In this document: in pieces, positions 6,134-38,111 of the stretch
How positions within the stretch are numbered: position 1 is the stretch's first letter
Layout: every line of letters begins with the position of its first letter
Origin: a virus
Length of the DNA stretch: 42,465 bases
Reading direction: 5' to 3' (one strand)
Virus record (IMG/VR): IMGVR_UViG_3300031974_002866
Coordinates: 1 to 42,465 of that record
Notes under the pieces: model-generated
Told to the model about the DNA's origin: nothing
The model's input: only the letters and a program-made list of their open reading frames with translations
The model's database searches: none
Program-made: the position numbers and the translations under genes

Positions 6134-9100
6134 ATGATAGAAACTAGAATCAAGATTAGTACAATTGTTGCAAACCAACTTCCTGCGTTTGTAAGAGAGG
6201 AATTTCCTCTTGTAAGTGAGTTTTTATCACAATACTACCTTTCCCTAGAAGGACAAGGTTCAACTTTAGATATTTTACAGAATATCGATCAGTATGTAAA
6301 GGTAGATAACTTAACCAACATTGTCGATTCAACGACATTGGGTGCTGATGTATCTTTTATTGATGATGTCATTACTGTTCAGTCCACATATGGATTTCCT
6401 AAGTCCTATGGATTGATTCAGATTGGTTCAGAAATCATTACTTACACAGGAATTACTGCAACAACGTTTACTGGTTGTATTCGTGGTTTTAGTGGCGTCA
6501 CATCATATCAAAGTTCAAATGCTCCAGATGAACTGACATTTAAAGAATCTGAAATTGCAGAGCATACATCTGGTTCAACTGTAACAAACTTAAGTGTCCT
6601 TTTCTTAAAAGAATTTTTCCATAAAGTAAAAAGACAGATAGTTCCTGGTTTTGAAGACAGGGAACTGTATTCTGGTATTGACCAGAGAATTTTTATCAAG
6701 CAGTCTAATGATTTCTATACCTCAAAAGGTACAGATCAATCGTTTGAAATTTTATTCAGAGCACTTTATGGTGAAGATGTTGAAGTCATAAAGCCAAGAG
6801 ACTATCTTCTTACCCCATCAAACGCAGAATATAGAGTATCAAGAGACTTAGTTGTAGAAGCATTAGAAGGCAATCCTGAAGATCTTCTGAATAGAACGCT
6901 TTTCCAGGATGAGACTGACGAATTTCCTGGTGCAAGTGGTTCTATTAATAATGTTCAAAGGATCGAAAGAGATAATAAGACCTATTATGTCATAAGTTTA
7001 GATTATGATTACGATAGAGATATTAGCGTAACTGGTTCTATTTTTGGTGAGTTTTCTGTTCATCCAACCACAAAAGTAGTCACATCAGTTTCTTCTGGAA
7101 GCACAGTTCTTGACGTTGATTCTACAGTAGGTTTTCCTTCATCTGGAACTTTAATTGTAGAATATTCTGATGGTTCTTCTATTACAATTGAGTATACATC
7201 AAAGTCTTTAACACAGTTTTATGGATGTAGTGGTATTACTAGAGACATTGGTTCTGAACAAGTTTTAAGAGTTGATGCTTTTGCTTATGGTTATCTTGGA
7301 TTTAATACAGATGAGACTGTTAAGGTAAGAATTACTGGCGTAATTTCTGATATTGATGTTTATGAATACACCTATTATTATGAACCTGGTGATATTATTG
7401 AAAATAAGCACCCCGGTATTGGTTTAACATCGGTTATTGGAAACAATTGGTTCTTTAATATTGCAACTTCATATGATATTAGTGCAATAACCGTTCAAGA
7501 TCTTGTCAACTTTAAGTATAAAGTTACTACTTTTGATGAGCACGGTTTCTCCATTGGAGACAATGCAAATTTAATTAAAACTGATGGAACATCAGTAAAG
7601 ACTGAAATCGTTTCGATACTGAATCCATATTCATTTATTATTGCCAATCAGGGACAAATTCAAACTCAAAACGTTATTCGCATACAAAGATTAGTATCGA
7701 AAGTAGAGTCTAATAACTATCCTGGTGCGGACATTTATTCTACAAATGTTCAGAACGTATATTCTGACAGAGAGTCCGTTTATGTAGCATCACCATCTAT
7801 TCCAAATTACTTGAATGAACCTTTAACTGTCAACAATAGGTCAGTAAAGTTCTCTGGAACAGTTAGTGGAGAAGAACTTACAGTTACTAATCACGGTTTC
7901 TATACTGGTGATTCAGTAACATATAGACCTATTAGTTCTACTAATACATTAAACATTTCGGAAGGAATCTATTTTGTCGAGAGAGTAAATGAGGATACTA
8001 TAAAACTTTCTAGAAGTAGAGCAAATATCAACAATAGGTTGTATTTAACTTTAGAAGGTACTGTAACTGATAATATTTTTGAATATACCGATCTTGCATA
8101 TCAAGAACTTGAACCTCAAAAAATTATTAGAAAGATCTCTGATCCAGTAACTGATACTAATGACCATACAACAGTTCCTGGAACTACTGGAATTCTTGTC
8201 AATGGTGTTGAGATATTAAACTACAAGTCAAGTGATGCAGTTTTCTACGGTCCCATTCAGACTGTTGATGTCACAAATGGCGGTGAAAAATATGATGTAA
8301 TTAATCCACCTGTTTTACAAGCAAATGGATCAGTAGGAACTGGTCTTTCTGCATATTGTGAAGTTGAAGGTTCTTTAGAAAGAATTGAAGTTATTGATGG
8401 TGGTTTTGATTATGTAGAAACACCTGTAGTAAACATTACTGGAGGAAACGGTGGTGGAGCAGTTGCAAGACCTGTTTTAAAAACCGTAACTCATTCTGTT
8501 GACTTTAATTCAACCGTATCTGGTAGTTCAGTTAACCTGACAAATGATACTATTGCATTTTCATCATATCACAAGTTTAGAGATGGTGAACTAATCATCT
8601 ACCAAACAAATGGTCAAACATCTGTTGGTGGAATGACTACTGGTGCTCAATATTATGTTTCTGTTCAAGATGAATATACAGTAAAAGTCCATAAAACATA
8701 TACTGATGCGATTGACGTAACAAACGCAGTCAATCTGACATCATACGGTGTAGGTAATCATACATTTAGATGTGCAAATTCTAAAAAGATTATTTCTGCT
8801 ATTTCTGTAGTAAGTTCTGGTAATGGGTATTCTAACAGAAAGACGACTACTACTTCAGCAGGAATTAATACATCATTAAACACCATTACATTAAAGTCTC
8901 ACGGTTATAGAAGTGGAGAATTAATTTCATATACTTCTGGAACAACCGCTATTGGTGGATTGAGTAATGAGAATTATTATGTAACTAAAGTTGATGATAA
9001 TACTATTAGATTATCTCAAGTTGGAGTAGGGTCAACTGCAGCAAACTTCTATTTTGCAAACGACCAATATGTCGAACTGACTTCAACTGGTTCTGGAGTT

Positions 9101-12100
9101 CAGTCATTCAATTATCCACCCATTAGTGTTTCTGTAAAGGGTAAAATTGGTGTATCGACAGTTGCAGGACAAAACTTTGGAGCACAATTGCAACCTGTCT
9201 TTAGAGGAGCAATTAAATCAGTTTATGTTGAAGATGGTGGTGTTGGATATGGTTCTTCAGAAATTCTAAACTACAATAAGCAACCAGAGTTTACATTAAA
9301 CAGTGGTTCTGGTGCTCAACTCAAAGCCATTGTCTCTAATGGAAAGATTACACAGGTATTGGTATTAAACACTGGTAGCGGATACAATTCTCCACCAGAT
9401 ATTGAAGTCAATGGTTCTGGAAATGGTGCTATTCTTGTACCTGTAATTTCTTCTGGAACAATTACCGAAGTTAAGGTAATAAGTGGTGGATTTAATTATC
9501 TTGAGAAAGATACAACAATTACTGTTATTAGTTCTGGAAAGAATGCTGCATTTGCATTTACTCCAAAAGTATGGAATATTAATATCTTTGAAAGGATTTT
9601 AAATAATAACCAAATATCAGATGATGATGGAGTAATTGTTGACGGAAACAATTCTTCTTATGGACTTCAATATTCTCACTTATACTCTCCAAGAAAACTG
9701 AGAAGAACTATACTTGGTTCAAAGGTTGTTAATGGCAGTCTGTCCTTTGTTCCAGATCTTCAAGTTCAAAATGGAAGAGAAATTTTATCAAATACCCACT
9801 CACCTATTATTGGATGGGCGTATGACGGAAATCCAATCTATGGACCTTATGGATACACATTAAGAACTGGTGGTTCTCCAAGATTACTTAAATCTGGATA
9901 TATTTTATCTTTAGATTCTGATAGACCAAATCCTCTGGATTCTAGCGGTAATGCAATTTATCCAGATGGTTTCTTCATTAATGACTATGTTTATGATGGT
10001 TCTGGAGATCTTGATGAGCATAATGGAAGATTCTGCAAAACTCCAGAATTTCCAAATGGTGTTTATGCATACTTTACCACAATAAACACAAATTCTGTAG
10101 AATCTGGTGGTGCATTTAAGAATTATAGAAAACCAGAATTCCCCTATTTCATCGGAGATAAGTTCAAATCAACTCCAATTTCATACAACTTTGAAAGTGG
10201 TTCTAACCAAGACGATATTGATTTAAATGATACGACTTTATCTAGAAACATAACCCCATATGGTCCTTTAAATCCAAATACTAAGTATGACTTTATTTTG
10301 GATTCTAACCAAATTCAAAAGCAAAATACATTAGTTAAGTCAGTAAGCAGAGGAACCATTCAAGGTATTGGAATCAATAGTGGTGGTATCAATTACAAAG
10401 TTGGAGATAGGTTAGAATTTGATAATGAAGGAACTAAAGGTTTTGGTGCAAGTGCAGTAGTTTCTTCGGTATTAGGAAAACAAATCTATAGTGTAGACAT
10501 ATCAAAAACTGAAATACCAAGTGTAGAGTTTTATCCTTATGGAGGAATAGACTATCTTGTTGGTTTTGCTACATCTCCACACGATTTAAAGACCAGAGAT
10601 ATTATTACTTTATCTGGTATTTCTACAACAGACAATTTAACAAATAAATTCTTTACCGTTGGTATTGGAACTGCAGGGTTCACTCTTAGTTCTGACGTAG
10701 ATACATCTTCTGTTACAGGCATCATTACTTATTTTAATGTATCTGGAAACCTTTCATTCCCAAATATTAGAGAAAATGATATTTTGGGCATTGGAACTGA
10801 GAAGATCAGAGTCCTTAATGTTGATACAGTTTCTTCTAGACTGAGAGTAGAAAGAGCATATGATGGAACATATGGAATTGCACATACTGGTTCATCAATT
10901 ATTAATGAAAACCCAAGAAAGTTTATTATTGATGGTAGAAATTTAGATATTTCTCAAGTATATGACTATAGCAGAGAACTGCATTTCAAACCATCAGAAA
11001 CAGTTGGATTGGGAACAACTGGTGGAGTTGGTATCACTTCCACATTATCATTTGCAAATCCTGGTGCTGGCATAACTCAAATCAGTGTTCCAACAAAGTC
11101 ACTGTATATCCCAAGCCATAGATTAACTACTGGCGATGAATTAATCTATTTCAATTATGGTGGTGATTCTATTGGCGTTTCTACAGATGGTATAGAAACA
11201 TTTGCTTTTGAAAATGGACAAACTTTATATGCAGCAAGAATTTCAGATGACCTTGTTGGAATAGCAACTACTAAAGTTGGTCTTGGTTCAACAGGTTCAT
11301 TTGTTGGTATCAATAGTAGCGTTTTTGTTGATACATTATACTTTGTTGGTGTTGGAACTGGCGAAAACCATAGTTTAAAGACAGTTCCTGCAAATATTTT
11401 ATCAGGAACTGTAAATAGGAACTCTGCAACAGTATCAACATCATCTACTCACGGTCTTCAGTATCAAGATACAGTCTCATTAAATGTATTTGCAGGCATT
11501 TCTACTACCCTTTCTGTAAGATATAACGACTACCACAGAAAACTTGTTATTGATTCAAGAGACTTTGTTTCTGGCGATGTAGATATTATTGATAATTCTA
11601 TAACATTATTAAACCACAACTTGACTACTGGACAAAAAGTTATTCATACTGCAACAACACCTGCAGCAGGACTTATTGATAATGAAATTTATTATGTTTA
11701 TGTTGTAAGCAAAGATAAAGTTAAACTTTGTCAAACTGTAACAGATTCCTTAGAACAAAATCCAAAGGTAGTTGATATTACAGGAACTTCTTCTGGAACT
11801 ATTTCACAAGTTAATCCACCTTTGATTCTGGAAAGAAATAAGACCTTAATATTTGACTTATCGCACTCATCACTTTCATTCACAAATAATTCAATAGCAT
11901 ATTCTGCATTTGACTTTGGTATTTTCTCTGATAAAGGACTGAAGAATCAGTTCTACTCATCAACTGATACTAAAGACTTTGAAGTAATAAAGAGTGGAAC
12001 TGTTGGTATAGACACAAATGCAAAACTGACTATCAAAGCATCTGATTCTTTACCAGAGACTTTATATTATGGTGCTGTTCCCATCAACTTGGAATTAAAT

Positions 12101-15100
12101 AATAACAGCAAAAAAGGAATTAAATCAGACACTCAAAATGTAAAGAATAATAATGAACTTATTCTGACCAATAGTGTTTTAACTTCAACATTTACTGTAA
12201 GTGGTATTGGTTCCACAACATTCTCATTCAGTATTCTTGGTTCTCCCAGTGAAGATCAATATCTCCCTGCTGATGGCAATCTTTTCTACACAACAGATTC
12301 TCAATATGCATATGGTCCAATTGCAGAAGTTGAATTAAAATCAAATGGAAGAAATTATGAGATACTTCCATCTGTATCAAGAGTAATAAGTGGAACAGGG
12401 ACAGATGCTGTTCTTTATCCACAAAGCTCAACCATTGGAAAGGTTATAAGTCTGGATATTCAGGACATTGGTTTTGATTATTCTGCAGATAAAACTCTTA
12501 GACCAGAAGTTCAACTTCCTCAGATATTAAGTATTGATCCATATTCTAAATTTGATACTATTGGAATATCATCTATTGGTGTCAATTATTCTCTTGCTCC
12601 AGATTTAGTAGTGGTAGATGGTCTTTCAAAGAAAGTAATTACTGATATTGAACTTGATTATGAGTTGGGAGATTCTTTCGTAACGATTGTAAAAAATACA
12701 TCATCTCTGAATGAAGTTACTCCAACAATAATTCCAATCAATAACACGAATGGTGTTTCTATTACAAATGTCCAATTTAACACAACATCTAAGGATGTAA
12801 CAGTTTCTTTAGGTTCTAGTTATAGTGCTTTAGCAGACTTCCCATTTGCTGTTGGCGATTCTGTACTGATTGAAAATGTTAGTGTTGGTATTGGATCAAC
12901 TGCAAAAGGTTATAACTCATCAAGATATAATTATAGTCTCTTCACTCTTACTCAAACAGATCCAAATATTGGTGGTGCAAATGCATCTGTCACATATAAT
13001 TTAACGGAATATCTTGCTTCTGGTGAATATCCAGGAACATTTGATTCCATAAACTCAGTTGGTAGAGTTATACCATCAAAACACTTCCCAATATTTGATA
13101 TTAGTTTAGAACAAAACAAATTCTACAAAGGTGAAATTGTAAGTTCTCCTTCTGCTAGTGGCGTCGTAAATTCTTGGAATGAAAAAACTGGAAACCTCAA
13201 AGTATCCACAATACAGAAGTTTAATATAGGGGAAAATATTACAGCATCTTCTTCTAAATCTATAGGAAGAATCACTGCCATCAGTCTATTCAATTCTTTC
13301 TATAATATTGGTTCTTCTTCTGTAGTTAAGAAAGGATGGCAAACTGAATCAGGATTCTTGAATAGCAGTCTGCAAAGATTGCACGATAATGACTATTATC
13401 AGTATTTCTCATATGCTATCAAGTCAAAAGTAGAATATGAAGATTGGAATAATGCAGTCAGTTCTCTTAACCATGCTGCAGGATTTAAAAAGTTCTCTGA
13501 TTTGATTGTAGAATCTGAAGATACTACTGCAGGTATATCCACAGATCAAAATCTTGGAACTTTTGATGCTATTTCTGACTTAGTATCTGAAATTGATTTA
13601 AACTGTGTAAATGACTTTGATTTGGCAAGAGAATTAACTGTCAATATTGATTCAGAAATTGCATCCAATGAAATTGTATTCAACTCTCGCACACTTCAAG
13701 ATTACTTAGAATCTGTTGGAAATAGAGTTCTCTCTATTGATGATATTAGCACTCAGTTCAATAGTAACCCAAGACCAGAAAGATATAATTCTATCGATCT
13801 TTTCCTTTTAGATGATGCAAGATCTAAAAAGTATATTGTTTTCATAAAAGATAAGAGATATACAGATGAAAGACAGATTAATTTGGTATCCATCCTTCAC
13901 GACAACTCAAATGGTTTCCTAAACCAATATGGTAGAGTTGAAACAGTTGGTGATCTTGGTTCATTTGACTTTAATATTGTAGGAACTGAAGGACAACTTC
14001 TTTATTATCCAACCAAGTATGCGTTAAATGATTACAACTTAAGTTATGTTGCATACAGAATCGAAGATAGTATTGCAGGAACTGATTCTAGAGATTTTGG
14101 AGACACTGCCAAAGTTTATAGCACAACTCAAACATTGGCATCTGGAACAAGCACTGCATCTACAATTGTAAGTATTGCTTCTACATATAGATCTTCCAAG
14201 ATTCTTGTACAATATGCTGCAGTCGATAACTCTTACTTTGAGTATGATGAACTCACAGTAATTCATGATGGAACCAATGTAGATCTTTTAGAATATGGTC
14301 AGTTGTCAACTGATATTCTAACTCCATTTGCTTCCTCTGGACTTGGAACATATAGTGCATACATATCTGGTTCTAATATCAATATTGATATCACTCCAAA
14401 TGCCGCATTAGGAGTTGATTATAATGCAAATACTATAATTATATCAATTGCAGATACATCTTCTGTTGGTGTTGGAACATTTGGAATGTCTGATGCTAAG
14501 TTGGATTCAACCATAACATCTATTGCATCAAGCACTTCACCAGTATCTACAAAAGTTGCAGAATATTCTAGTGATCCTTATTCTTGTGCATATTATGTTG
14601 TAAGTGTTGAAGATACTACAAATTCTCAGTACCAAGTTTCAGAAATTATCGTTGCTAATGATTCAAGTGATGTATTGATTACAGAATTTGGTAATTTAGA
14701 AACTGGATCTAGTATTGGAACTTTCGATGCAAGTGCATCAGGAGGTAATATAGAATTAACATTTACTCCAATTGCAAATGCAGACATTGAAGTTAGAGTT
14801 TTCCAAAATGCTCTTGGTTTAATTGATCCAAAAAATACAAATACGATTATTGACTTAAACAATGCATCAGTTTTTGCTGGATATGGCGATTATACTGGAA
14901 CAGATGCTGATGTTAAGAGACAGTTTAATTTAACTCACAATCAACTTCCAATTTTTGAAAGATACTTTGTTGGAAGTGCATCCACTGTCGTTGATGTTTC
15001 AAATAACAAAGTTTTCATTCCTAATCATTATTTTGTTACTGGTGAAGAATTAACTTATAAACATGCTGGAGCTGGAACTACTCAAGCAATTACAATTGCC

Positions 15101-18100
15101 TCAACAAATATTCCTGGTATTGGCATAACAGATAAATTACCAAGCACAGTTTATGCAATTAAAGTTGATGAGGTTTCAATAAAATTTGCTGGAAGTGCAG
15201 AGGATGCTCTTAAGGTTGTTCCAACAGAATTGGATATAACTTCAGTAGGTATTGGAACTTCGCACTCTCTCACATCTAAGAAACAAAATTCAAGAGTTCT
15301 TGTTTCCATTGACAATGTAATTCAATCTCCTGTTGTTTCTACAGCAATTACAACAACACTCTCAACAGATCTTCCAATAACAGATAACACATTGACCTTG
15401 AGTGGAATAACATCATTCTTTGGCGGTGACCTAATCAAGATTAATAATGAGATTATGAGAGTTGATGCAGTTGGTATTGGAAGCACAAATGTATTAAGAG
15501 TCAGAAGACCTTGGATGGGAACTGGAATTGGAACACATCCTTCAGGTGCTTTGGTAACTAAGATTGATGGTGATTACAATATTGTTGATAACACAATTAA
15601 CTTTATATCTGCACCTTATGGACCAGTTCCACTTAGTACAACTACTGCAAGTCCAGATGAGGTAGATTATACTGGTATTGCCACATATTCTACATTTAGT
15701 GGAAGATCTTTCTTAAGATCTGGTGTGCCAAATACGGATATTGAACCATACACAAACAATTACGTACTTGATGATGTTTCTTCACAGTTTACTGGTTTTA
15801 CCACATCATTCAACTTAACCTCTGAAAATTCAAACGTAACAGGATTCTCAACAGACAATGCTATTATCTTGGTTAATCAAATATTCCAAGGTCCAGAAAG
15901 AGATACATTCCCAGTACGTGTTGATGGAGATTATACATTAGAAGAATCCGTTGGTATTACCAGCATTAACTTCACTGGCTCAATTTCTTCAACAGCATAT
16001 GATATTAATACTGCAAATGTTCCTTTAGGTGGTGTTATTGTTTCTGTTGGTTCTACTGAAGGATTTGGTTATCAACCATTAGTGGCTGCTGGAGGAACAG
16101 CAGTTGTTTCTGGTTTAGGAACCATTTCGTCTATCAGCATTGGAAATAGTGGTTCTGGTTATAGAGCAGGAATTCAAACAGTTGTTAATGTTGGTGTTGC
16201 GACTTCAAGTACAGGAATTCCAAATATTGAGTTTATTGGAACTGCTGCTATTAGTGGTGGACATATTGTTAGTGTTGCTATCACAAATCCAGGAACTGGG
16301 TATACATCCACAAATCCACCAATTGTTATTTTCGACGATCCTTTATCATACTCCAATATTCCATTAGTTTATAGTTCTTCTTCCGTATCTGGAGTTGGAA
16401 CACAAGCAACTGCTGATATTGTTGTTGGACAAGGATCTAGTGTAATTGAATTTACCATTCGAAATGCTGGATATGGATATGGTCAGGGTGAAATACTGAC
16501 ATTTGATATTGGTGGAACTGCAGGAATTCCAACAGATACTTCACTTACATTTGATGAGTTCCAAGTTTCTATTGAGTCAACATATTCAGATAGTTTCTCT
16601 GGTTGGTCTATTGGAAATCTGTTGGTCTTAGATAATATTGATTACTTGTTTGATGGAACAAAGACTTCTTTCCCAATCAAAATAAATGGCATCCAAAAAA
16701 CAATAAGATCTGCTGTTGGATCACTTATTGATGTTCAGGAAACATTATTAGTTTTTGTTAATGATGTTCTTCAAGTTCCTGGAAAAGGATACACTTTTGC
16801 AGGTGGAAGTTATATTACATTCACTGAAGCACCAAAGGTTGGAGATACAACAAAAATTCTCTTCTATCAAGGCACATCTTCTGTTGATGTTATTGATGTT
16901 GATGTACTGGAAACTATTAAGAAAGGTGATACTGTAACATTAAATGATGATGATTATTTCTATCAAGAAGATGAAAGACTTGTATATACCATTAATTCGA
17001 CGGACACCATTGATACAAACCTTTATAATGGTCCAGGCGTTACTGCAAACGAATCTTATGAAAGACCAGTTAAGTGGTGCAGACAAACTGAAGATAAGTT
17101 TGTAAATGGAGAATATGTTGCTAAGGATAGACCAATCTACGAACCATTGATTTATCCAACTTCAACTATCATTCAACCTGTAGGTATTGGTTCAACAATT
17201 GTTTATGTTGAAAGTGTAAAAACTTTCTTTGATAGTGAAAAAGAAAACTATGCAGATAGTGATGAAATTGCTCTCATTTCTCAGGATTCATTGGTATCTG
17301 CAGCTGCAACTGCGATTATCTCTGATTTTGGTGAAGTATCGTCTATTTCAATAACAGACGGTGGGCAAGGATATTCAACTCCTCCTCAGGTAACAGTATC
17401 AAATCCAGTTGGTCTTGGAACTACTCAAAGAGCACAATTAACAGCATCAATTTCTATTAATGGTGAGGTATCAGCGGTTACTGTTGTTTCTCCTGGAACA
17501 GGATATACAACAAGCAATCCACCACAAGTTCTTATCGAACATCCAAATGTTGCATATGAAGCAAATTCTTCACAGTCATATGTTGGAGATTTTGGAAGTA
17601 TTGTTGGATTTGGCACAACTACCATTGGTGTTCAAAATCAAATTATCTTTGATTTGTATATCCCAGAAAATTCATATTTGAGAGACACAACTATTGTTTC
17701 TTCGGCAACAACTGTTAGTGGATTAACTTATGGCGATTACTTTGTTATTAAGGATAGCAATGTTGGAAGTGCTACCACATTTATAACATCACTGAGAAAT
17801 ACTGGAGAAGTTATTGGAATTGGAACACAATTTGTTGATAATGTGTATCAAGTAGCAAATTCATTAATAGTTGAAACTAATATTGTAGGAATTGGTTCTA
17901 CATATGTGACCAGAGTATTTGCAAATATTGACCAGTTTAACTCAGAGTCATTCTCTTCTGATGCAATAACTTTTGATTCTACAACATATACATTTGATTC
18001 TACCGTTGGTTCTTACACAGTTTACTCTGGTGGTATTTCAACATCCAGTTATTTTGGTTCGTATACTTGGGGCAAAATAACACTTACAAGTGAAATCCAG

Positions 18101-24800: not shown

Positions 24801-27800
24801 ATTAATTCTGTCAGCGTTTCTGATATTATTGATATTAGACCGAGAGTTTCTGAATTCTCATCAACTACATTATCACCATTTGAATTTAATGCAAGAAACT
24901 TTACTTCTGCAGGAAATTCTGCTGCAAATATTCTTGCTTCTGATGAGTCAATTCTTCTCGACTATTCGTTCTACTTACCAAGAGTTGATAAAATCTTCTT
25001 GAGCAAAGATGGAACTTTCCAACTTATTAAGGGTGTCCCTGCCGAAGTTCCCATTCTTCCAAATAACATTGAAGAAAGTTTAGAAGTTGCAACAATAACT
25101 CTTCCCGCATATCTTTGTGATGCAAATGAAGTTAATATTGTTGCAAATAGACATCCTAGATACACGATGTCAGATATTAAGGGTCTTGAGCAAAGAATTA
25201 AGAACCTGGAATTCTACACATCACTGACATTATTAGAATCAGATACATCAAATCTTTACATTAGAGATGTTAATGGTCTTAATAGATTTAAGTCTGGTTT
25301 CTTTGTCGATGATTTCTCTTCTACAAGATCTCAAATTAAGAAGACTGGTGTTAAAAACAGCATTGATATCAAGAATTCAGTATTGAGACCTTCTCACTAT
25401 ACGAATGAAATTGACTTGGTTCTTGGTTCAAATTCTCTTCTTGGCATTGGAACAAGTCCAGATGCAAGTGTCGATCAAAGGTTTACTACTGATTTAGATG
25501 CAGTTGGTGTTGTTAGAACTGGAAGAGTTCTTACATTGGATTATGTTGAAGACACATATATCGTACAAAACTATGCAACAAGAACTGAAAATGTTACTCC
25601 ATTCTTAGTTACTTATTACTCAGGAACTATTGAGTTAACACCTTCCTCTGATGTTTGGATTGATACTACAATAACCAATTCAAAAACTATTGAACTTGAA
25701 GGTGATTACACAAAGACTGTCGCACAACTAGAACTTGAAGGTTATGATAAGAAAACTGGATATACTCCTTTAGTTTGGGGTTCTTGGGAAACTACTTGGA
25801 CTGGTGAAGATAAGAAACAAACAAGTGATACTGCTTGGAAGGGAAACAACCTTGTCAGAACTGATTCTGAAACCGTAACAAAAACTGGAACAAAAAGTAG
25901 AGAAGGCACTAGAAAGGTTGCTAAAGAAGTATTTGATGATATTAACATTGGACAATCGCTTCTTAGCACTCAAATTGTACCTTATTTGAGATCAAGAAAC
26001 ATTGAATTTGTTTCAAAGAGAATGAAACCATTGACAAGAGTTTATGGATTCTTTGATGGACAAGATGTCAATGAATATGTTGTACCAAAATTACTTGAGA
26101 TCGAAATGGTCAGCGGTACTTTTGAAGTTGGAGAAACTGTAAAAGATGTTTCTGCTACGACACCTGAGATATATGTTAATATATGCATTATGCCTCCTAG
26201 GTTACGAGATGGAAGTATAATGGGAAGACCATTGAGTCCAGCATTTGGTGGAGGAAATCCCGAAGCAACCGTATCATTTAGAGTTGCTCAACAAAATCAT
26301 AAGTATGGTCCATACAATGCACCGACTTCAACATATAATTTGAATCCTTATGATGAGCAACCAATTTCGGATTCTTATTCATCAACATCTAATATTCTTA
26401 ACATAGACACATTTAGTATATGCGATAAAAACACTAACAATTTCTTTGGATATGTCAAAGAAGGCACCAAACTTATTGGACAAACTAGTGGAGCAGTTGC
26501 GATTGTTAGAAGTTTAAAACTTGTCACTGATGATATTGGAACTATTATTGGTTCCTTATTTGTCCCCGATCCAAAGTTGGTTAATAATCCAAAGTTTGAG
26601 GCTGGAACAAAACTCTTTAGACTTACAAGCAGTGCAAATAATTCACAGATTCCTGGTTTTGTAGACACAAGTGCTGAAGAAAGATTTGAATCTAGAGGTA
26701 TTTTAAATAAGACCCAAGAAAATACATTATCTGTGAGAAATATGCGAGTCGAAACACAGACTCAAAAAGAAAGTGAATCTGTCACTGATGTGAATACTAC
26801 TGTTGTAGGAACAACTGTAGTTGGAACATATAAGCCACCCTCTGGACCCTCATACAGCGGAGGTGCATCAACTGGTGTAGAGATTTTTATTCCAGTAACT
26901 TCAAGTACTTCAGGTACTGTTACCGCTGGTTCAAAAAATATCAACCAAACAATTCTTAATGCTGTACAAAGTGCATATGTAAATGCTTTAGGAAGAAGAC
27001 CAGACTCTAGTGGTGAGCAATATTGGTCTACTACCAGATATAACGAACTGGTGGGACAAGGAAAAACGCAAGCACAAGCACTTGCCCAAATTAAAAAAGA
27101 TATTGCATCTAGCCCAGAAGCAACATACATTGGAAGAGGAACTGTTGCAAGTCAACAATCAAGTTATGCAATCAGTAGACCAACAGGTGGTGGTGGAACA
27201 ACATATACCAGTAGAGCAAATACTAGTACTGTAGGATCCACAAATGCTTCTCTGATTACAGCACAATATCGTGCAAGTTTGGGGAGAACACCTTCTGCAA
27301 GCGAAGTTTCTTATTGGACTAATGCAGTAAGAAGAACCGGATCTAACGTCGCTGTTGCTTTAAGTGCAATTAAAAATTCACCAGAAGCAAAAGCAAGAAG
27401 CAGTCGTACTTGTATCTTTGATCCTCTGGGACAAACCTTCTTTGTTGAAGAAACAAGTGGTATTTTTGTAACTTCTATTGATGTATTCTTTAGAACTAAG
27501 GATAATACTTTACCAGTTACAGTACAACTTCGTTCAACCAAACTTGGTCTTCCAACTTCGAAGGTATATCCATTCAGTGAAGTTGTAGTTGACCCCGACG
27601 ATATCAATCTGTCGGATGATGGAAGTGTTCCTACAAGAATCAACTTTAATTCCCCCGTTTATCTGAGTGGCGGAGAATTCCATTCAATCGTATTACTGTC
27701 TGCAAGTAATGATTATACTGCTTGGATTTCAAGACTTGGTGAAGTTGATATTACTACTGCAAATGAACCTGAAGAAAGACAAGTTGTTGTTACTACACAA

Positions 27801-29876
27801 CCTCTGCTTGGTTCTCTCTTCAAGTCTCAGAATGGTGTAACTTGGAATCCAAGTCAATATGAAGATCTTAAGTTTATTCTGAACAGAGCAATATTTGCAC
27901 CACAAGGAAATGTCAACTTCTACAACCCAGTTACCAATATTGATAGTGATTCTTCTGTCTTTGCAACCAGAAATGCTTTAGAGATTTCTTCTAATCAAAT
28001 TAGAGTTGGTCTCGGAACTACGGTACAAGAACCAGACTTTACTATTGGAAATACTGTCATTCAACTAGGTTCAAATGTTAGTGGAAATTATGTCGGTTCT
28101 GCAGGAACTGCAACTGGCACTATGAGCATTATTAACTCTGGTATTGGATATACACCATCATCTGGTTCCTTCACCTATTCCAATGTTGCATTAACTAATG
28201 TCACAGGAACTGGTAAAAATGCTACCGCAAACATCACTATTACCAATGGAGTTGCTGTTGCAGCAACTATCTCTAATGGTGGAACTGGATATTCTGTTGG
28301 TGATGTATTGACTTCGACAGGAATTGGTACAAATTCTCTTGGCAGAAACCTGAGACTGTCGGTTTCCGATATCACTGGTATTAATGAACTGATTATTGAT
28401 AATGTTCAGGGTGAGTTTACAGTTGGTGCTGCTGGAACAATTCAATATATCAATAACTCTGGTGTAACAACTGCATTGAATAGCAGTATTGGTGGAAATG
28501 TACTTGTTACTGATGTTGAGACTATTACTGATGGTCTTCATATCAGAGTCAATCAGAAGAATCACGGAATGCATTCTGCTCTGAATAGAGTTCAGATTGC
28601 TAATGTTGCAAGTGATATTCTTCCAACGAAACTCACTGCAGATTATGCAGTAGATTCTACCGATACTATTCTTATCGCAGATGCTTCCAACTTCGGAACA
28701 TTTGAAAATGTAGGTGTTGGAACAACCAATCCAGGATATGCAAAGATTGGTAGCGAAATTATTGAGTACACTGGCGTTTCTGGCAATTCACTTGTTGGAA
28801 TTACAAGAGCAATAGACGCTACAGTTTCCTCTTCTTATGATACTGGCAACTTTATAAGCAAGTATGAGTTGGGTTCTGTTTCTCTGCGTAGAATAAACAA
28901 GACTCACAGTCTGGCAGATTCTACTGTAACGGATTCTGTTGGTTTGGACTACTACACCATCAAACTTGATATGTCACAAAATGGCATAGACAGAAGTGTT
29001 GGAACAAGTTTCCCCAAACTGTACTTAAATGAAACAAAGTCTACAGGTGGAAGCAGAATCAAGGCTACTGAAAACCTTCAATATGAAATTGTAACACCTA
29101 TTGTTGAAAATATTACTCCACAAGGAACCAATATTGACGCTTCTATCAGAACAATTACTGGCACAAGTATCAATGGAACCGAAACTTCATATATCGATAA
29201 GGGATTTGAATCTATTTCGTTGAGAGGAGCAAATTACTTAACTTCTCCAAGATTGATTGCATCGAGAGTCAATGAAACAAATATGTTATCTACTTTACAG
29301 GGTAACAAATCATTTACTCTTGCATTGAATCTTACTTCGGCAAATGCTGCACTATCACCTGTTATTGACTTGGATCGCGTTGCAATGATTCTTACTTCAA
29401 ATAGAGTCAATGAACCAATCACAAATTATGTAACTGATAATAGAACTGCAGATCTCTTGAATGATCCAAATGCCTTTGTTTATGCAACAAAACCAATTTC
29501 CTTAGAAACTCCTGCAACTGCTATTAAGATTTTCCTGGCAGCAAACATTAACAAGTTTAATGATGTCAGAGCGTTCTTTGCTATTGCAAAAGAAGCAACT
29601 GAAGAAATGGTTTATTACCCATTCCCAGGATATTCAAACCGTCTTCAGTCTGGTCAGGTAATTGACATCTCACAAAACAACGGTTCTCCAGATAAGTTCT
29701 TCTCTAAGACTGATACTTTGGCACTGACAGAAGATCAAGTATCTTACACAGATCTTGAGTTTACTATTGATAACTTGCCATCGTTTAAATACTTCAGTGT
29801 GAAACTTGTTGGAACATCAACTAACCAAGCATATCCACCAAGAATCAAAGACTTTAGAACCATTGCACTTGCATAA
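21837..29876 (+). CDS. Giant virion protein with DUF4815-type N-terminus (2679 aa)
   Basis: The N-terminus (APYFDDFDPQNNYYKVLFK, then PVQARELTTLQSMLQDQI) is the signature of DUF4815 phage structural proteins. A conserved-looking core lies near 1384-1421 (RSRNIEFVSKRMKPLTRVYG; FFDGQDVNEYV). Two DUF4214-like segments occur at about 1703-1765 (ALGRRPDSSGEQYW) and 1806-1856 (YRASLGRTPSASEVSYW...NSPEA). 'GxGY' repeats lie near 2100 and 2146, and a 'GSEIIEYTG...GITRAID' module near 2268-2340. The C-terminus ends with a compact domain (FPGYSNRLQSGQVIDIS). AAGGA at 21829-21833 supports the start. It follows gp8, where T4 has gp9-gp12, so it is probably the peripheral baseplate or fibre-attachment protein of this phage group. 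The function is inferred from position. Confidence 0.92.
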   Translation: MPQETNLNTAPYFDDFDPQNNYYKVLFKPGYPVQARELTTLQSMLQDQIEKFGNHIFKEGDSITGGGVRYNNNLPSVIVNTTFSGINVSNYISDLNGGTLIGTVSGVKARVKAHLNESAFPGEPYTLYVNYLSSSGDNTTFIEGETLAIETGFSNDVVSFQDGENVLNIVAENALSLGSMAVLAEGVYFVRGYFINIPEQTIILEPYSNVPSYRIGLEVFEEVINSDIDPDLNDNAKGFSNYTAAGADRLKVRAYLVKKPLDNEKYENFIELMVVNNGDVTAIRKNTQYNEIAKEFARRTYDESGDYYVNPPSIVAKETLNDLVGSQGVFLEDQTTYNGNTPSESLGTYTISPTKAYVRGYEVETVSPTYLDFEKPRTTKLAENQSINYTTGPTFSLNRVSGSPIIGLSTTYTVSLRDSRIGASPTTAAGKEIGVARVYDFALESGAYDVTDSNLNVWDTALFDIQTYTEITLNENITLDTPTHIKGKASGATGFLKYAATNSGIITAYNIRGSFALGENFIFDGIENNRVSTAVTAYGTNDVKSIYGIVGAASTFNGDVIQSSNNVIGLVNISAGSGGISTVTNADLSKYFVGIATVGNLVAYSNPGLSVPTFSKVESVSQNSLTLSSVTSVSGICDGSLPTTDINPSDFRILSSNFQEALDKTLYTVLPKQKVSSVDLTDSNLTIRKQFDVTISSNSTGAVISGSDELTFLPFDEERYVLMRTDGSTEILTEDKFVFTNGSKTLTINGLGTDSPAKLIATLRKINVKSKIKNRNKVKTITVTKSKYEKSGIGATTANDGLTYGPGYGMRVQDEEICLLVPDVFKIHAIFESSGTSDATLPKLTLTQLSGPTNKTGDLLSGDEFKSETGSFVGLYVGAVDDLNINYIALNNKTLSAGEVIKFKESGITAVVSVNDLGDNDISDNYYLDNGQRDTFYDYSRIVRVPTSKEPTRRLKIVYEYADFSASDTGDITTINSYGEFDYCDLPSINSVSVSDIIDIRPRVSEFSSTTLSPFEFNARNFTSAGNSAANILASDESILLDYSFYLPRVDKIFLSKDGTFQLIKGVPAEVPILPNNIEESLEVATITLPAYLCDANEVNIVANRHPRYTMSDIKGLEQRIKNLEFYTSLTLLESDTSNLYIRDVNGLNRFKSGFFVDDFSSTRSQIKKTGVKNSIDIKNSVLRPSHYTNEIDLVLGSNSLLGIGTSPDASVDQRFTTDLDAVGVVRTGRVLTLDYVEDTYIVQNYATRTENVTPFLVTYYSGTIELTPSSDVWIDTTITNSKTIELEGDYTKTVAQLELEGYDKKTGYTPLVWGSWETTWTGEDKKQTSDTAWKGNNLVRTDSETVTKTGTKSREGTRKVAKEVFDDINIGQSLLSTQIVPYLRSRNIEFVSKRMKPLTRVYGFFDGQDVNEYVVPKLLEIEMVSGTFEVGETVKDVSATTPEIYVNICIMPPRLRDGSIMGRPLSPAFGGGNPEATVSFRVAQQNHKYGPYNAPTSTYNLNPYDEQPISDSYSSTSNILNIDTFSICDKNTNNFFGYVKEGTKLIGQTSGAVAIVRSLKLVTDDIGTIIGSLFVPDPKLVNNPKFEAGTKLFRLTSSANNSQIPGFVDTSAEERFESRGILNKTQENTLSVRNMRVETQTQKESESVTDVNTTVVGTTVVGTYKPPSGPSYSGGASTGVEIFIPVTSSTSGTVTAGSKNINQTILNAVQSAYVNALGRRPDSSGEQYWSTTRYNELVGQGKTQAQALAQIKKDIASSPEATYIGRGTVASQQSSYAISRPTGGGGTTYTSRANTSTVGSTNASLITAQYRASLGRTPSASEVSYWTNAVRRTGSNVAVALSAIKNSPEAKARSSRTCIFDPLGQTFFVEETSGIFVTSIDVFFRTKDNTLPVTVQLRSTKLGLPTSKVYPFSEVVVDPDDINLSDDGSVPTRINFNSPVYLSGGEFHSIVLLSASNDYTAWISRLGEVDITTANEPEERQVVVTTQPLLGSLFKSQNGVTWNPSQYEDLKFILNRAIFAPQGNVNFYNPVTNIDSDSSVFATRNALEISSNQIRVGLGTTVQEPDFTIGNTVIQLGSNVSGNYVGSAGTATGTMSIINSGIGYTPSSGSFTYSNVALTNVTGTGKNATANITITNGVAVAATISNGGTGYSVGDVLTSTGIGTNSLGRNLRLSVSDITGINELIIDNVQGEFTVGAAGTIQYINNSGVTTALNSSIGGNVLVTDVETITDGLHIRVNQKNHGMHSALNRVQIANVASDILPTKLTADYAVDSTDTILIADASNFGTFENVGVGTTNPGYAKIGSEIIEYTGVSGNSLVGITRAIDATVSSSYDTGNFISKYELGSVSLRRINKTHSLADSTVTDSVGLDYYTIKLDMSQNGIDRSVGTSFPKLYLNETKSTGGSRIKATENLQYEIVTPIVENITPQGTNIDASIRTITGTSINGTETSYIDKGFESISLRGANYLTSPRLIASRVNETNMLSTLQGNKSFTLALNLTSANAALSPVIDLDRVAMILTSNRVNEPITNYVTDNRTADLLNDPNAFVYATKPISLETPATAIKIFLAANINKFNDVRAFFAIAKEATEEMVYYPFPGYSNRLQSGQVIDISQNNGSPDKFFSKTDTLALTEDQVSYTDLEFTIDNLPSFKYFSVKLVGTSTNQAYPPRIKDFRTIALA

Positions 29877-30966: not shown

Positions 30967-32376
30967 ATGCTTAACCCATTTTTCCAGCAAGGTTCAAATA
31001 CAGAACAGTCTTTAATACAAGACTTAATCAATGAACAACTTCGTATGTACGGAGTTGAGGTATATTATATTCCAAGAAAATATGCGACAACTAATACAAT
31101 AATAAGAGAGGTTATTGAGTCTAAGTTTGACAATGCATATCCTATTGAAGCATATGTGAATACCTATGAAGGGTATGAAGGACAGGGAACTATCTTATCA
31201 AAGTTTGGTGTCCAACCATTGGATGACTTAACCATTACTATTTCAAAAGAAAGATTTGAAACTTATATTACACCTCTTATAACGAGTTTACCAAATATAG
31301 AACTTGCAACTAGACCAAAGGAAGGAGACTTAATTTATTTTCCTCTTGGTGATAGACTTTTTGAAATTAAGTTTGTAGAGCACGAAAAACCATTCTACCA
31401 ACTTCAAAAGAATTATGTTTATCAACTAACTTGCGAACTCTTTAGATATGAAGACGAACTTGTTGATACTGGTGTTGATGAAATTGATGATAATGTAAAA
31501 GACGAAGGATATATTCAAACTCTTACACTTGTTGGTTCAGCAGTAACTGCAACAGCAAACACATATATTGTCAATGGTGGTGTAAGATTCTTCACTCTTT
31601 CAACTAGAGGAGATGGATACTCCGCTGCTCCAAGAGTTGCTCTTTCAGCAGCACCTGCAGGTGGTTTAACTGCGGTTGGTGTTGCAACAATGATTGGTGA
31701 TTTAGTTGATTGTGCTGGAGATAAGGCAGCATCCAAAGTTCAAGGTGTAGAGGTTGTAAACTCTGGATATGGTTATACTGTCGCACCATCTGTTGCATTC
31801 TTTGGTGGTGGTGGAGCAGGTGCCGCGGCCACTGCAACAATTGGTGATGGTGTAATTGGAATTGTTACGGTTACAGGTGGTGGATCTGGATATACTACTT
31901 CACCTTCTGTTTCGTTTACTAATGAAATATTCCAATCAGGTGTCACAACAGCATCTGCATCAGCACACGCATATATCAATGGTGCAGGTATTGTAACTGC
32001 AATTTACATTACAAACGCAGGTCTTGGTTATAGTGTTGCACCAACTGTTGAAGTTGCAACTCCTGTTGGTGTTGGTTCTACTGTTGGTATCGGAACCTTC
32101 ACTTACAATGAAGTTATTACTGGAAGTGTCAGTGGAAACACTGCTCGCGTAAGAGAGTGGAATACTGTAACAAATACTTTAGAAATTGCAAATCTGACTG
32201 GAGACTTTGTTCCAGGAGATGTTGTTATGGGATCAGAGTCTGGTGCAATCTATAAGGTTAGAGTTGTTAATAAGGACAATCTTGTCGATCCTTATGCTCA
32301 GAATGATATTTTTGAGACAGAAGGTGACAGTATTCTCGACTTTACTGAAGGAAACCCATTTGGAACTCCTTCCTAA
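30967..32376 (+). CDS. 14: gp14-like neck protein with a large internal repeat insertion
   Basis: gp14 pairs with gp13 in the T4 neck. Residues 1-180 are typical (LINEQLRMYGVEVYYIPRKY; YVNTYEGYEGQGTILSKFG; PKEGDLIYFPLGDRLFEI). The protein is 469 aa, against 256 in T4. The extra length is mainly four repeat units with 'GxGY(S/T)xxP' at about residues 217, 268, 308 and 354, followed by a 'GSVSGNTARVREWN' strand-rich segment. The last 35 residues (NDIFETEGDSILDFTEGNPF) look like an original gp14 end, which makes the repeats an internal insertion rather than a tail. The repeats resemble those in the giant baseplate proteins. They may decorate the neck. Confidence 0.93.
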   Translation: MLNPFFQQGSNTEQSLIQDLINEQLRMYGVEVYYIPRKYATTNTIIREVIESKFDNAYPIEAYVNTYEGYEGQGTILSKFGVQPLDDLTITISKERFETYITPLITSLPNIELATRPKEGDLIYFPLGDRLFEIKFVEHEKPFYQLQKNYVYQLTCELFRYEDELVDTGVDEIDDNVKDEGYIQTLTLVGSAVTATANTYIVNGGVRFFTLSTRGDGYSAAPRVALSAAPAGGLTAVGVATMIGDLVDCAGDKAASKVQGVEVVNSGYGYTVAPSVAFFGGGGAGAAATATIGDGVIGIVTVTGGGSGYTTSPSVSFTNEIFQSGVTTASASAHAYINGAGIVTAIYITNAGLGYSVAPTVEVATPVGVGSTVGIGTFTYNEVITGSVSGNTARVREWNTVTNTLEIANLTGDFVPGDVVMGSESGAIYKVRVVNKDNLVDPYAQNDIFETEGDSILDFTEGNPFGTPS

Positions 32377-32400: not shown

Positions 32401-33396
32401 ATGTTTGAGTATTTTTACCACGAAATATTAAGAAGAACCGTTATTGGATTCGGAACACTCTTTAATGATATTTCGATTCAACACACCGATTCTTCGGACA
32501 ATACAGTAAGCACTCTCAAGGTGCCGCTGGCATATGGTCCTACTCAAAAGTTTCTTGCAAGGTTAGAGCAGGTTGCAGACCTGAATAAACCAACTCAATT
32601 GTCTCTGCCAAGAATGTCTTTTGAGATGATTGGTCTTAGTTATGACCCTACAAGAAAAGTAACTTCAACTCAAACATTTATTTCTGCTCTTAGTAGCGAT
32701 AAGAAGAAACCAAGAAAGACATATATGCCCGTGCCATACAATATGGCATTTGAACTAAGCATATACACAAAGTTGAATGATGATATGCTTCAGATTGTGG
32801 AACAAATCTTACCATATTTCCAACCAGCATATACTTTAACTGTTGATTTGGTAGATCAAATTGGTGAAAAGAGAGATATTCCTGTGGTGTTTGAAGGCAT
32901 CACAATGTCTGACGATTATGAAGGAAACTATCAGACAAGAAGGTCATTGATTTATACTTTAAGGTTTACTGCAAAGACATATCTCTTCGGTCCTATTTCC
33001 GATCCTTCAAAAGATATTATCAAAAAGGTTACTGTTGGTTATACTGCTGGAGACAGAACACAAACACCAACAAGAGAATATACATACAGTGTAGAACCAA
33101 GAGCAACGCAAAGTTATACAAATAATGTTGTAGCAACTCTCTCTACAGATATCACCGATGTAGCAACAACTATTCAAGTTAGTGATGCGTCTTCTATTGC
33201 AGTCGGTGGTGTTCTTGTTATTGATGATGAGAACTTCCGTGTTGCATCTAAGTCAGGAACTAAGATAACTGTTGAAAGAGGATACGACTCCACAACAGCA
33301 ACTAACCACGTCTTAGGAACGGACATTAAGTTAATTACTGCAGCAGATGCAGACCTTATTCAATACGGCGATAATTTTGGTTTTGATGGATTCTAA
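32401..33396 (+). CDS. 15: gp15-like tail sheath stabiliser/completion protein
   Basis: gp15 caps the tail tube and sheath and makes the contact with the neck. The N-terminus (YFYHEILRRTVIGFGTLFND) and the segments MSFEMIGLSYDPTRK, YMPVPYNMAFELSIYTK and VFEGITMSDDYEGNYQTRRS are typical. The product is 331 aa, against 272 in T4. The surplus corresponds to a C-terminal module at about 243-315 (ATTIQVSDASSI; GGVLVIDDENFRV; ITVERGYDSTT), which also occurs in the giant proteins of this window. gp16 begins six bases after the stop. Confidence 0.94.
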   Translation: MFEYFYHEILRRTVIGFGTLFNDISIQHTDSSDNTVSTLKVPLAYGPTQKFLARLEQVADLNKPTQLSLPRMSFEMIGLSYDPTRKVTSTQTFISALSSDKKKPRKTYMPVPYNMAFELSIYTKLNDDMLQIVEQILPYFQPAYTLTVDLVDQIGEKRDIPVVFEGITMSDDYEGNYQTRRSLIYTLRFTAKTYLFGPISDPSKDIIKKVTVGYTAGDRTQTPTREYTYSVEPRATQSYTNNVVATLSTDITDVATTIQVSDASSIAVGGVLVIDDENFRVASKSGTKITVERGYDSTTATNHVLGTDIKLITAADADLIQYGDNFGFDGF

Positions 33397-34546: not shown

Positions 34547-34550
34547 AAAA

Positions 34551-36200: not shown

Positions 36201-36215
36201 TAGTCAAGTACATAA

Positions 36216-36223
36216 TCTAAATA
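36216..36223 (+). promoter_or_regulatory. Late-promoter-like motif abutting a terminator
   Basis: TCTAAATA ends at the first base of the terminator stem and 27 bases before the ATG at 36250. If transcription starts about six bases downstream, as in T4 late promoters, the new RNA would lack most of the left stem arm. Confidence 0.45.
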
Positions 36224-36249
36224 GAGGGGTCTAAGAACCCCTCTTTTTT
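36223..36249 (+). terminator. Rho-independent terminator after the 549-aa fibre gene
   Basis: AGAGGGGT (36223-36230) pairs perfectly with ACCCCTCT (36237-36244) around a six-base loop, and six T residues (36244-36249) follow. The T-run ends directly at the ATG of the next gene, so the terminator and the next leader overlap completely. Confidence 0.9.
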
Positions 36250-36465
36250 ATGACTGAACAAGATTTAAAGTATCTGATTGCATCATATCAACAAAAGTCA
36301 TTTGACTTACTTTCACAATCAATTGCAAGTGATGCAAAAGTTAAACAACTTAGCGAATTGGTTGAAGTGTTGACTACAAAGATTAATGAGCAGAATGAAG
36401 AAATTGAAAAACTTAAGTCAAAAACAAAAAGAACGATAAAAACAGAGACAACAGACTTTCAATAA
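36250..36465 (+). CDS. Small coiled-coil protein (71 aa)
   Basis: Residues about 5-60 form a long amphipathic helix (DLKYLIASYQQKSFDLLSQS; LVEVLTTKINEQNEEIEKL) followed by a basic tail (KSKTKRTIK). It is probably a homo-oligomeric coiled coil. The ATG sits immediately after a terminator T-run and has no Shine-Dalgarno, so translation should be weak or leader-poor. I recall similar proteins beside cyanophage fibre genes. It could be a fibre chaperone or trimerisation aid, but this is conjecture. Confidence 0.8.
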   Translation: MTEQDLKYLIASYQQKSFDLLSQSIASDAKVKQLSELVEVLTTKINEQNEEIEKLKSKTKRTIKTETTDFQ

Positions 36466-36468
36466 ATA
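36461..36468 (+). promoter_or_regulatory. T4-type late promoter
   Basis: AATAAATA overlaps the TAA stop of the 71-aa gene (36463-36465). It lies 57 bases before the next ATG, a much longer leader than for the other genes, and that leader carries a perfect palindrome. Confidence 0.55.
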
Positions 36469-36477
36469 ACTAATAAG

Positions 36478-36495
36478 TCTCAATATATATTGAGA
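36478..36495. promoter_or_regulatory. Perfect 18-base palindrome in the leader of the 528-aa gene
   Basis: TCTCAATATATATTGAGA equals its own reverse complement. In RNA it can fold into a seven-pair stem with a four-base loop, close to the expected 5' end of the transcript from the late promoter at 36461. It could protect the message or bind a dimeric regulator; there is no T-run, so it is not a standard terminator. Confidence 0.55.
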
Positions 36496-36524
36496 TCTAT
36501 GGTATATACCAAAGATGAACTCAA

Positions 36525-38111
36525 ATGGCAGATCCGATTATTAAAATAAAACGTTCTGCTGTAGCTGGAAAAAAACCAACTACTTCAGACCTAAATTTAG
36601 GAGAAATTGCTCTTAATACATACGATGGACAACTTTTTACCAAAAGGGTAAGAAGTGGTATAGCAACAGACATCGTAAATATTGGAGCTGGTGCAACAGT
36701 AACGAATATTTTATATGTCACAGAAGACGGAAGCGACACAAACACAGGAGAAAGACTTGGAGACGCAAAAGCAACAATCTCAGGAGCAGTTGCGATCTCA
36801 ACAACAGGAACAGTTATTAGAGTTTCTGCTGGTACATACGTAGAAAGTAACCCTATCAAACTACCACCCCAAGTTAGTATTATTGGGGATAGTTTGAGAG
36901 AGGTGACGGTTCAACCACAAAACTCAAATCAAGATTTATTCCACGTAGCACCTGGAAATTATATTACTGAGTTATCTTTTACTGGAACATTAGATTCTGG
37001 AAAGGCAGTGGTTGCTTTTGATCCAGACACTATTAGAAACTCGACACAATCTCCATATATTAGAAACTGTACCAATTTTATTGAGAACAGTATTGGAATG
37101 AAGATTGATGGAGATCACGTTCTTGGTGATACTAAGAGTATGGTTACAGACTCTTATACACAATATAATAAGAATGGAATTGGTGTTTCTATCACAAACG
37201 AAGGATATGGTCAGTTAGTTTCATTATTCACTATTTGTTCTGATACAGCAATCTATTGTGGTTCTGGTGGAGGATGTGACTTAACAAACTCCAACTCATC
37301 ATTTGGCAATTATGGACTAATTGCAGAAGGAGTAAGTACCGAAAAAATATCTGGTATTGTCACAACAGCAGCAGATGCAGGAAGTTCTGTATTTTCAATT
37401 GCTGGTGTTGGAACAGTTAGACCTTATGACGGACAAGTAATAATATTTGATAACTTATATTATGAAGTTGAAAGTATAACAGTTGGTTCTGGTGGAACAG
37501 GATATACAAGTCAACCAACTGTGACTATTGATGCCCCAAGTGAATCGTGGGGTGTTACAGCAACGGCATCGGCAAATATTGAAAACGGAAAAGTAACATC
37601 TATTGATATTATTTCAAATGGTAGAGGATATGGTTCTTCTACTCCAACTGTAACAATATCTTCTCCAAATGTTGGTGTTAATACAGCAACTGTTACTGCA
37701 ACATTAACTCCAAAATATTATGTGATTGAAAGTGCTACACAACCAGTATCTGGTGTTTCTACTGTAACAATTACAGAGAATTTGCCATATGCTGTTGGTG
37801 TAGGAACTACTGCACCAATATATAAACAAAGTAGAATTTTGGCGTCCAGTCATTCTTTTGAATATATTGGAAGTGGGGTCACAATTGCAACTGCATTACC
37901 ACAAACTGGTGGAATTGCAATTCAGGCAAATGAAGTAGTTTCTAAAAATGGTGGTTTGGTGATTTATACCAGTACAGATCAATCTGGAAACTTTAGAATT
38001 GGTGATGGTGTTATTATTAACCAATCTACTGGAACTATTTCTGGTAATTTTTATTCAAAGAGTTTGATAGCAAATGTTACGCCAATTGTACTAGCATTAG
38101 GAGGTATGTAA
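36525..38111 (+). CDS. Beta-helix tail-fibre/tailspike-like protein (528 aa)
   Basis: The N-terminus (DPIIKIKRSAVAGKKPTTSD, then LNLGEIALNTYDGQLFTKR) is a phage fibre attachment-type domain. From about residue 65 a right-handed parallel beta-helix pattern follows (VTEDGSDTNTGERLGDAKAT; GTVIRVSAGTYVES; LPPQVSIIGDS; GNYITELSFTG), as in pectate-lyase-like spikes. No catalytic residues can be pointed to, so sugar binding is as likely as cleavage. Two 'GxGY...P' repeat units interrupt it at about 325 and 367. The C-terminal part (NGGLVIYTSTDQSGNFRIGD) is a common cyanophage fibre end. Its leader is unusually long. Confidence 0.84.
   Translation: MADPIIKIKRSAVAGKKPTTSDLNLGEIALNTYDGQLFTKRVRSGIATDIVNIGAGATVTNILYVTEDGSDTNTGERLGDAKATISGAVAISTTGTVIRVSAGTYVESNPIKLPPQVSIIGDSLREVTVQPQNSNQDLFHVAPGNYITELSFTGTLDSGKAVVAFDPDTIRNSTQSPYIRNCTNFIENSIGMKIDGDHVLGDTKSMVTDSYTQYNKNGIGVSITNEGYGQLVSLFTICSDTAIYCGSGGGCDLTNSNSSFGNYGLIAEGVSTEKISGIVTTAADAGSSVFSIAGVGTVRPYDGQVIIFDNLYYEVESITVGSGGTGYTSQPTVTIDAPSESWGVTATASANIENGKVTSIDIISNGRGYGSSTPTVTISSPNVGVNTATVTATLTPKYYVIESATQPVSGVSTVTITENLPYAVGVGTTAPIYKQSRILASSHSFEYIGSGVTIATALPQTGGIAIQANEVVSKNGGLVIYTSTDQSGNFRIGDGVIINQSTGTISGNFYSKSLIANVTPIVLALGGM

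Follow-up and report, generated by a model that had tools for sequence, protein, structure and literature searches.

A GxGY unit family in five virion proteins of a T4-like cyanomyovirus forms a candidate portable accessory domain

Five different virion proteins of one marine virus share a short GxGY module, which raises the questions of whether these units are homologous, how they came to lie in otherwise unrelated proteins and what they do on the particle. The window (the whole stretch of DNA that was analyzed) is a 42,465-base virus record whose gene content is that of a T4-like cyanomyovirus, a group with cyanobacterial hosts. The gene order gp25, gp6, giant protein, gp10-like, gp8, DUF4815/VrlC-like, gp13, gp14, gp15 and fibres is as in Kyanoviridae (S-SM2, S-B43). 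The window gp14 is 59% identical to S-SM2 gp14, and the window gp8 is 67% identical to S-B43 gp8. No tail sheath protein is encoded within the window.

A profile HMM of the unit was run in its final form on the 13 window proteins (Z=13), and the top score among reversed sequences was 4.8 bits. Motif search and profile place the units between about 8249 and 37712 of the window, at the sites given by the first-pass annotation. The features are as follows.

8249..8467, + strand: giant baseplate protein (6134-18202), unit pair, residues 706-778; HMM 19.6 and 28.6 bits; kept in the S-SM2 and S-B43 orthologues
9206..9538, + strand: giant protein, three units, residues 1025-1135; HMM 17.2, 30.7 and 7.9 bits
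10352..10456, + strand: giant protein, single unit (GY.xGD variant), residues 1407-1441; HMM 18.8 bits
16118..16531, + strand: giant protein, three units, residues 3329-3466; HMM 6.1, 26.4 and 10.2 bits
17330..17548, + strand: giant protein, unit pair, residues 3733-3805; HMM 38.7 and 25.7 bits
20901..21125, + strand: gp8 (20277-21830), unit pair, residues 209-283; HMM 5.0 (weak) and 26.4 bits
28104..28361, + strand: DUF4815/VrlC-like protein (21837-29876), unit pair, about residues 2090-2175; 7.6 bits for the second unit, the first recognized by eye
31573..32085, + strand: gp14 neck protein (30967-32376), four units, residues 203-373; HMM 22.5, 34.5, 22.0 and 26.3 bits
32098..32226, + strand: gp14 module M4 (GE..G..SGA beta-barrel), residues 378-420, after the GxGY array that it hosts; HMM 54.4 bits
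37458..37712, + strand: 528-aa fibre (36525-38111), unit pair, residues 312-396; HMM 33.6 and 27.0 bits; AlphaFold2 model

The giant protein has 11 units with E<0.01, starting at residues 706, 746, 1025, 1069, 1107, 1407, 3329, 3376, 3436, 3733 and 3776, and further weak units at 887, 2061 and 2142. Units start at residues 203, 256, 294 and 341 of gp14 and at 315 and 354 of the 528-aa fibre. gp8 combines a strong unit at residue 253 with the weak one at 209. The DUF4815 protein is the weakest case, with the profile match at residue 2143 and the unit recognized by eye at 2102. The positions of the weak gp8 and DUF4815 units are conserved among orthologues. Earlier counts of about twelve units in the giant protein, four in gp14 and two each in the fibre, gp8 and the DUF4815 protein agree with the 11, 4, 2, 2 and 2 found here, one of the gp8 units being weak and the DUF4815 pair weakly detected.

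Other modules recur in the same proteins. M4 (GE.V.G..SGA.A.V..W...L.V...G.F..GE) is found in the giant protein, gp8, the DUF4815 protein (twice) and gp14, at 13121-13240, 21393-21491, 23289-23396, 26463-26576 and 32098-32226 of the window; it has 90 copies at iE<0.01 in 15 clusters with 0 reversed, and is also present in the S-RIM2 tail sheath. M3 (GFp..G.i.Ig.EiitYtg...tf.g..RG) has four copies in the giant protein and one each in the DUF4815 protein and gp15 (6371-6496, 7112-7228, 10754-10867, 15395-15520, 28668-28817 and 33172-33288). Eight copies of M2 (HGF.tGd.V.Y...iGGL..YyV..vd..tikLs) lie in the giant protein, at 7865-8068, 8531-8755, 8864-9097, 10553-10747 and four more places in 6134-18202. 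The giant protein also contains a YHYH domain (PF14240, E 1.9e-22; 9788-10099), and DUF4214 stretches occur also in the DUF4815 protein (27234-27395).

The GxGY unit is ~40 residues long and consists of three strands with the consensus NG-x-V-xx-V-x-V-x-N-G-G-x-G-Y-xxx-P-x-V-x-I...A-x-A. The conserved columns are G2, V/I4, V/I7, V/I9, N/D11, the invariant G13, G15, Y16 (96%), P20 (75%, sometimes D), V22 and I24, followed by a run of glycines and then G31, A32 and A34. Spacing between units is typically 38-46 residues. AlphaFold2 modeled the gp14 array (residues 191-370) with a pLDDT of about 74-94 and the fibre module (residues 296-415) with a mean pLDDT of 88.7 as two times three strands. In both models each unit starts with a long strand; the short one comes about 17-20 residues later, past GxGY, and is followed by a third strand that forms a hairpin at the NG turn with the first strand of the next unit. 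The predicted strand order is the same in gp14 and the fibre, the two of the five proteins that were modeled, and for these two the common fold sought by the first-pass annotation holds at the level of strand order. The long first strand (G-x-V-xx-V-x-V) would lead into a tight turn, which the invariant GxGY residues G and Y hold in place, with the short second strand (P-x-V-x-I) and the third strand (A-x-A-x-A) following it. The pairing of units in the sequences and the confident model suggest that two tandem units close into one ~80-residue domain, and by analogy with T4 gp18 Domain I (below) this domain may be a six-stranded barrel. A Foldseek search with the fibre module model returned no significant PDB match, galectins being among the insignificant rows, and among the matches of full-length gp14 the core region predominated.

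Profiles trained on one gene and scored on the others, a split by gene that avoids circularity, were used to determine whether the units are related. The profile built from the giant protein alone scored 26.9 and 24.6 bits on the fibre, 23.9 and 21.3 bits on gp14 and 13.0 bits on gp8, compared with a top score of 8.2 bits for reversed sequences and 5.5 bits for the best of 20 shuffles. Growing the profile over 15 phage structural clusters gave 140 units at iE<0.01 and 0 in reversed ORFs. There was no significant match to the unit profile in other beta-rich proteins of the window (gp10-like, the Mtd_N fibre and the 1332-aa fibre) or in the T4 cluster, where the single weak match is at residue 102 of gp18. 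No Pfam or NCBIfam model covers the unit. These results bear out the first-pass view of one unit family linking otherwise unrelated proteins, and the GxGY units in the five virion proteins are one homologous family.

The unit is common far outside cyanophages. A consensus query retrieved 80 loci from the genomes of bacteria and archaea in many phyla, among which the phage-trained profile found 389 units and 0 in reversed sequences; collection with the consensus skews these units toward it, so their identities are not usable for judging origin. tblastn with the consensus against phages found nothing, perhaps because of low-complexity filtering. Tail sheath proteins are among the carriers examined (Nostoc, another genome of the same class, Metarhizobium and locus L308), as are major tail proteins (Arthrobacter and Pseudomonas), a minor head protein (Acetobacter) and, outside virions, bacterial multicopper oxidases and one molybdopterin enzyme. 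Prophage proteins of three kinds (major tail, sheath and minor head) have GxGY pairs as additional segments; each matches its own PHROG family over almost its full length, and the part with the module matches a dozen PHROGs besides. In these sequences the module looks like an inserted domain. PHROGs 460, 438, 701, 708, 2885, 5342, 17885, 19630 and others contain the unit and cross-match through it, but they are whole-protein clusters and none defines the module. Bacterial tail sheath genes, one of them from Nostoc, have 2-6 tandem inserted units (L254 1873-3975; L307 610-2508; L233 2488-4239; L308 727-2151). A contig labeled Euryarchaeota archaeon TMED129 (L293 2065-3516) encodes a cyanophage-like gp14 and is probably a viral contig binned with an archaeal genome. 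Tandem units at E<=1e-6 occur in only 6 of the 194 genomes of the Nostoc carrier's class, with tail sheath genes at three of the six best loci, so the hosts are no obvious source of the module.

Comparison of orthologues identifies the tandem pair as the portable entity. In T4 and phiM7, nothing of this kind separates the gp14 core from the conserved C-terminal tail. At this site S-RIM44 and S-SSM4 have the M4 module (in gp14, GE.V.G..SG..A.V..W...L.V...G.F..GE.I.G..SGA) without a GxGY array. In S-RIM2 and Syn9, M4 contains a GxGY pair that lies between GE.I.G and AEVKSW. Four units precede the first GE strand of an uninterrupted M4 in the window, S-SM2, P-SSM2 and S-B43. The number of gp14 units is thus 0, 2 or 4 by lineage, and the positions of the arrays before or after the GE.V.G strand point to repeated independent insertion. 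Over 308 aligned residues the gp14 proteins of S-RIM2 and S-SSM4 share 78% identity; what chiefly sets them apart is the 82-residue GxGY pair of S-RIM2. The DUF4815 proteins of the window, S-SM2, S-B43 and ACG-2014f share one site, which is empty in Syn1 and S-CRM01; the latter two have a pair upstream of the PVYL segment instead. Two non-overlapping sites, each empty in the other lineage, again point to repeated independent insertion. All aligned Kyanoviridae and phiM7 have the gp8 pair at one and the same site, and nothing in T4 gp8 corresponds to it. Two units are present in gp13 of S-CRM01 (L013 32612-33757), whereas the window gp13 has none. An apparent 104-aa insertion in relatives of the giant protein was an artifact that arose from a match to a different type of repeat lying upstream. 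The presence or absence of the pair and its differing sites among orthologues indicate that the module was inserted or lost several times and at more than one site, as expected of the transferable module postulated in the first-pass annotation. By these alignments the portable entity is the tandem pair (~80 aa), which is gained or lost repeatedly and otherwise inherited with its gene. The pair would be lodged in loops of proteins that the virion already had, in the case of gp14 within a second beta-barrel module, and would add accessory surface, presumably exposed on the virion, with the core undisturbed.

Two origins of the common units other than such portability and descent were weighed against these data. 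Convergence, in which G/T/V-rich beta proteins resemble one another through composition and the units lack a common ancestor, draws on the shortness and low complexity of the units and on marginal scores for a few unrelated proteins (GFP-like); it is barely credible given the success of training and testing across genes, the zero reversed matches against 140 phage and 389 bacterial units, an ordered multi-site motif over about 35 columns and the like strand order predicted for gp14 and the fibre. Recent copying among the genes of one genome by repeat recombination would account for units in five genes of one cluster, and the repeats themselves could supply the homology. Nearest neighbors of the 140 units contradict it. 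The closest unit was in the same gene of another phage for 79 of them (19 expected), in another gene of another phage for 55 (108 expected), in the same protein for 6 (4.6 expected) and in another gene of the same genome for 0 (8.2 expected). When only cross-gene neighbors were considered, 11 were in the same genome against 9.9 expected, and the mean cross-gene identity was 32% within and between genomes alike. We consider recent copying very improbable, and the spread inside one structural cluster proposed by the first-pass annotation is not supported, on this count and in view of the abundance of the module outside cyanophages. The order of descent of the units cannot be told from about 35 columns. 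The module appears to be old in each gene, with vertical inheritance and occasional gains and losses, and would belong to a pool common to prophages and bacterial proteins.

Structures in the PDB were searched for relatives of the pair. Among PDB sequences the pair profile best matches Dpo31, the tailspike of phage Carin-1 (E 0.0041; stretches 431-463 and 476-507), and the matched units lie at the N-terminal edge of, and within, the inserted domain D3* (434-536). D3* is an Ig-like insertion in the beta-helix of the tailspike that adjoins the presumed depolymerase site and has a distant likeness to sugar-binding Ig-like domains (DALI Z 2.8-2.9); its binding of sugar is the authors' speculation (PMC13317679). 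D3* (PDB 28lx, 28mg and 8ck1) resembles the module in having two tandem units of the same motif inserted into a tailspike beta-helix, and the pair in the 528-aa fibre likewise follows a stretch with a weak pectate-lyase-like (beta-helix) match. Dpo31 differs in coming from a podovirus of Cobetia and in the description of D3* as an Ig-like domain rather than a family member; the link is by sequence, and D3* is absent from the rows listed in the structure comparison with the fibre module.

The top row of that comparison is T4 gp18 Domain I (3fo8 99-188; Z 5.2, rmsd 3.2 Å over 74 residues, 22% identity), a score that is weak by itself because Z is below 8. A Klebsiella KP1-type sheath also matched, and the next unrelated row has Z 3.0. 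The sole sequence match in the T4 cluster falls on this domain as well (gp18 102-118, 9.0 bits). hhalign with eleven sheaths gave P 7e-4 compared with 0.1-0.54 for control segments, and that segment (unit 1) reaches 7.5-14 bits in 10 of the 11 sheath homologues, against at most 4.1 bits when reversed. A chance match to gp18 was considered and dropped after the structural match and the sheath profile comparison. These scores are modest, and together they make it quite probable that T4 gp18 Domain I is homologous to the GxGY module. Domain I is a six-stranded barrel with a helix that is inserted in Domain II, points outward without sheath contacts and binds the baseplate and the retracted long fibres, and the substitutions G106S, S175F and A178V stop fibre retraction (PMC3004832). 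All three published wild-type residues fit only with mature numbering (Met1 uncounted), in which G106 is the invariant glycine of the GxGY motif. Domain I (PDB 3fo8 and 3foa) is an inserted, outward-pointing six-stranded barrel of about 90 residues, as the module may be, with a first unit of PGSNY..GD.I.V, and differs in its degenerate second unit with a helix and in its location on the sheath rather than on neck, baseplate or fibre.

The best explanation for the GxGY pair, to which we assign a probability of about 0.6, is an exposed accessory docking or adhesion domain that is portable as a pair, old, and vertically inherited with gains and losses. It would act on the outside of the neck, baseplate and fibres through contacts with fibres, neighboring virion parts or, loosely, the host surface; such a role is presumed for phage Ig-like accessory domains, and T4 gp18 Domain I, the one relative with genetic data, plays it for retracted tail fibres. 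By homology with T4 gp18, the cyanophage proteins may have a docking role as well. The carriers among multicopper oxidases and a molybdopterin enzyme mean that fibre docking cannot be the general role of the module. The units could instead be passive filler that adds only length, rigidity or stability and has no binding partner of its own, which would fit the changes in gp14 unit number without other obvious change and a giant protein that is largely a string of several such modules. We regard this as unlikely because the invariant G/Y/P positions are kept within lineages over 50 diverse gp14s and 31 fibres and because the T4 relative has a mutant phenotype. Doubtful too is a small lectin-like domain making weak, many-copy contacts with host surface glycans. 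Sugar binding, which the first-pass annotation had raised, would suit exposed accessory domains in many copies and is in line with the position of D3* in Dpo31, its resemblance to sugar-binding Ig-like domains and the galectin rows of the Foldseek search. Those DALI and Foldseek likenesses are weak, the units match no Pfam carbohydrate-binding family, and the conserved G, Y, P and alternating V/I look structural, with no conserved charged or multi-aromatic site seen.

Small portable beta-domains on phage particles, mainly Ig-like, are already known, as are additional domains of sheaths (PMC9230969). Phage Ig-like accessory domains (Big_2, I-set and Fn3) are likewise small, portable, present or absent among orthologues and located on tail, sheath and head proteins; the GxGY module differs in its two sequence-repeated halves and invariant GxGY, and the units have no match above the Pfam cut-off to an Ig-superfamily profile. 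No prior description of the motif or module was found in the Ig-like and cyanophage neck literature searched, most subscription journals lying outside it. On balance we favor the view that the GxGY pair is an uncatalogued two-unit barrel, portable and of very wide distribution, which phages of many kinds use in place of Ig-like domains in neck, baseplate, sheath, tail tube, head and spike, with Dpo31 D3* and T4 gp18 Domain I as solved examples and an invariant glycine needed for docking. The module gives the impression of an old clip-on surface domain, reused widely and not peculiar to this virus. This assignment unites segments now spread over many PHROG families under a single name and with a structure that can be tested. 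Profile matches through the module can give wrong gene names ('neck protein' or 'baseplate wedge'), and the module accounts for much of the size variation in cyanophage neck proteins. The tie to a classical T4 mutant makes the choice between docking and glycan binding testable.
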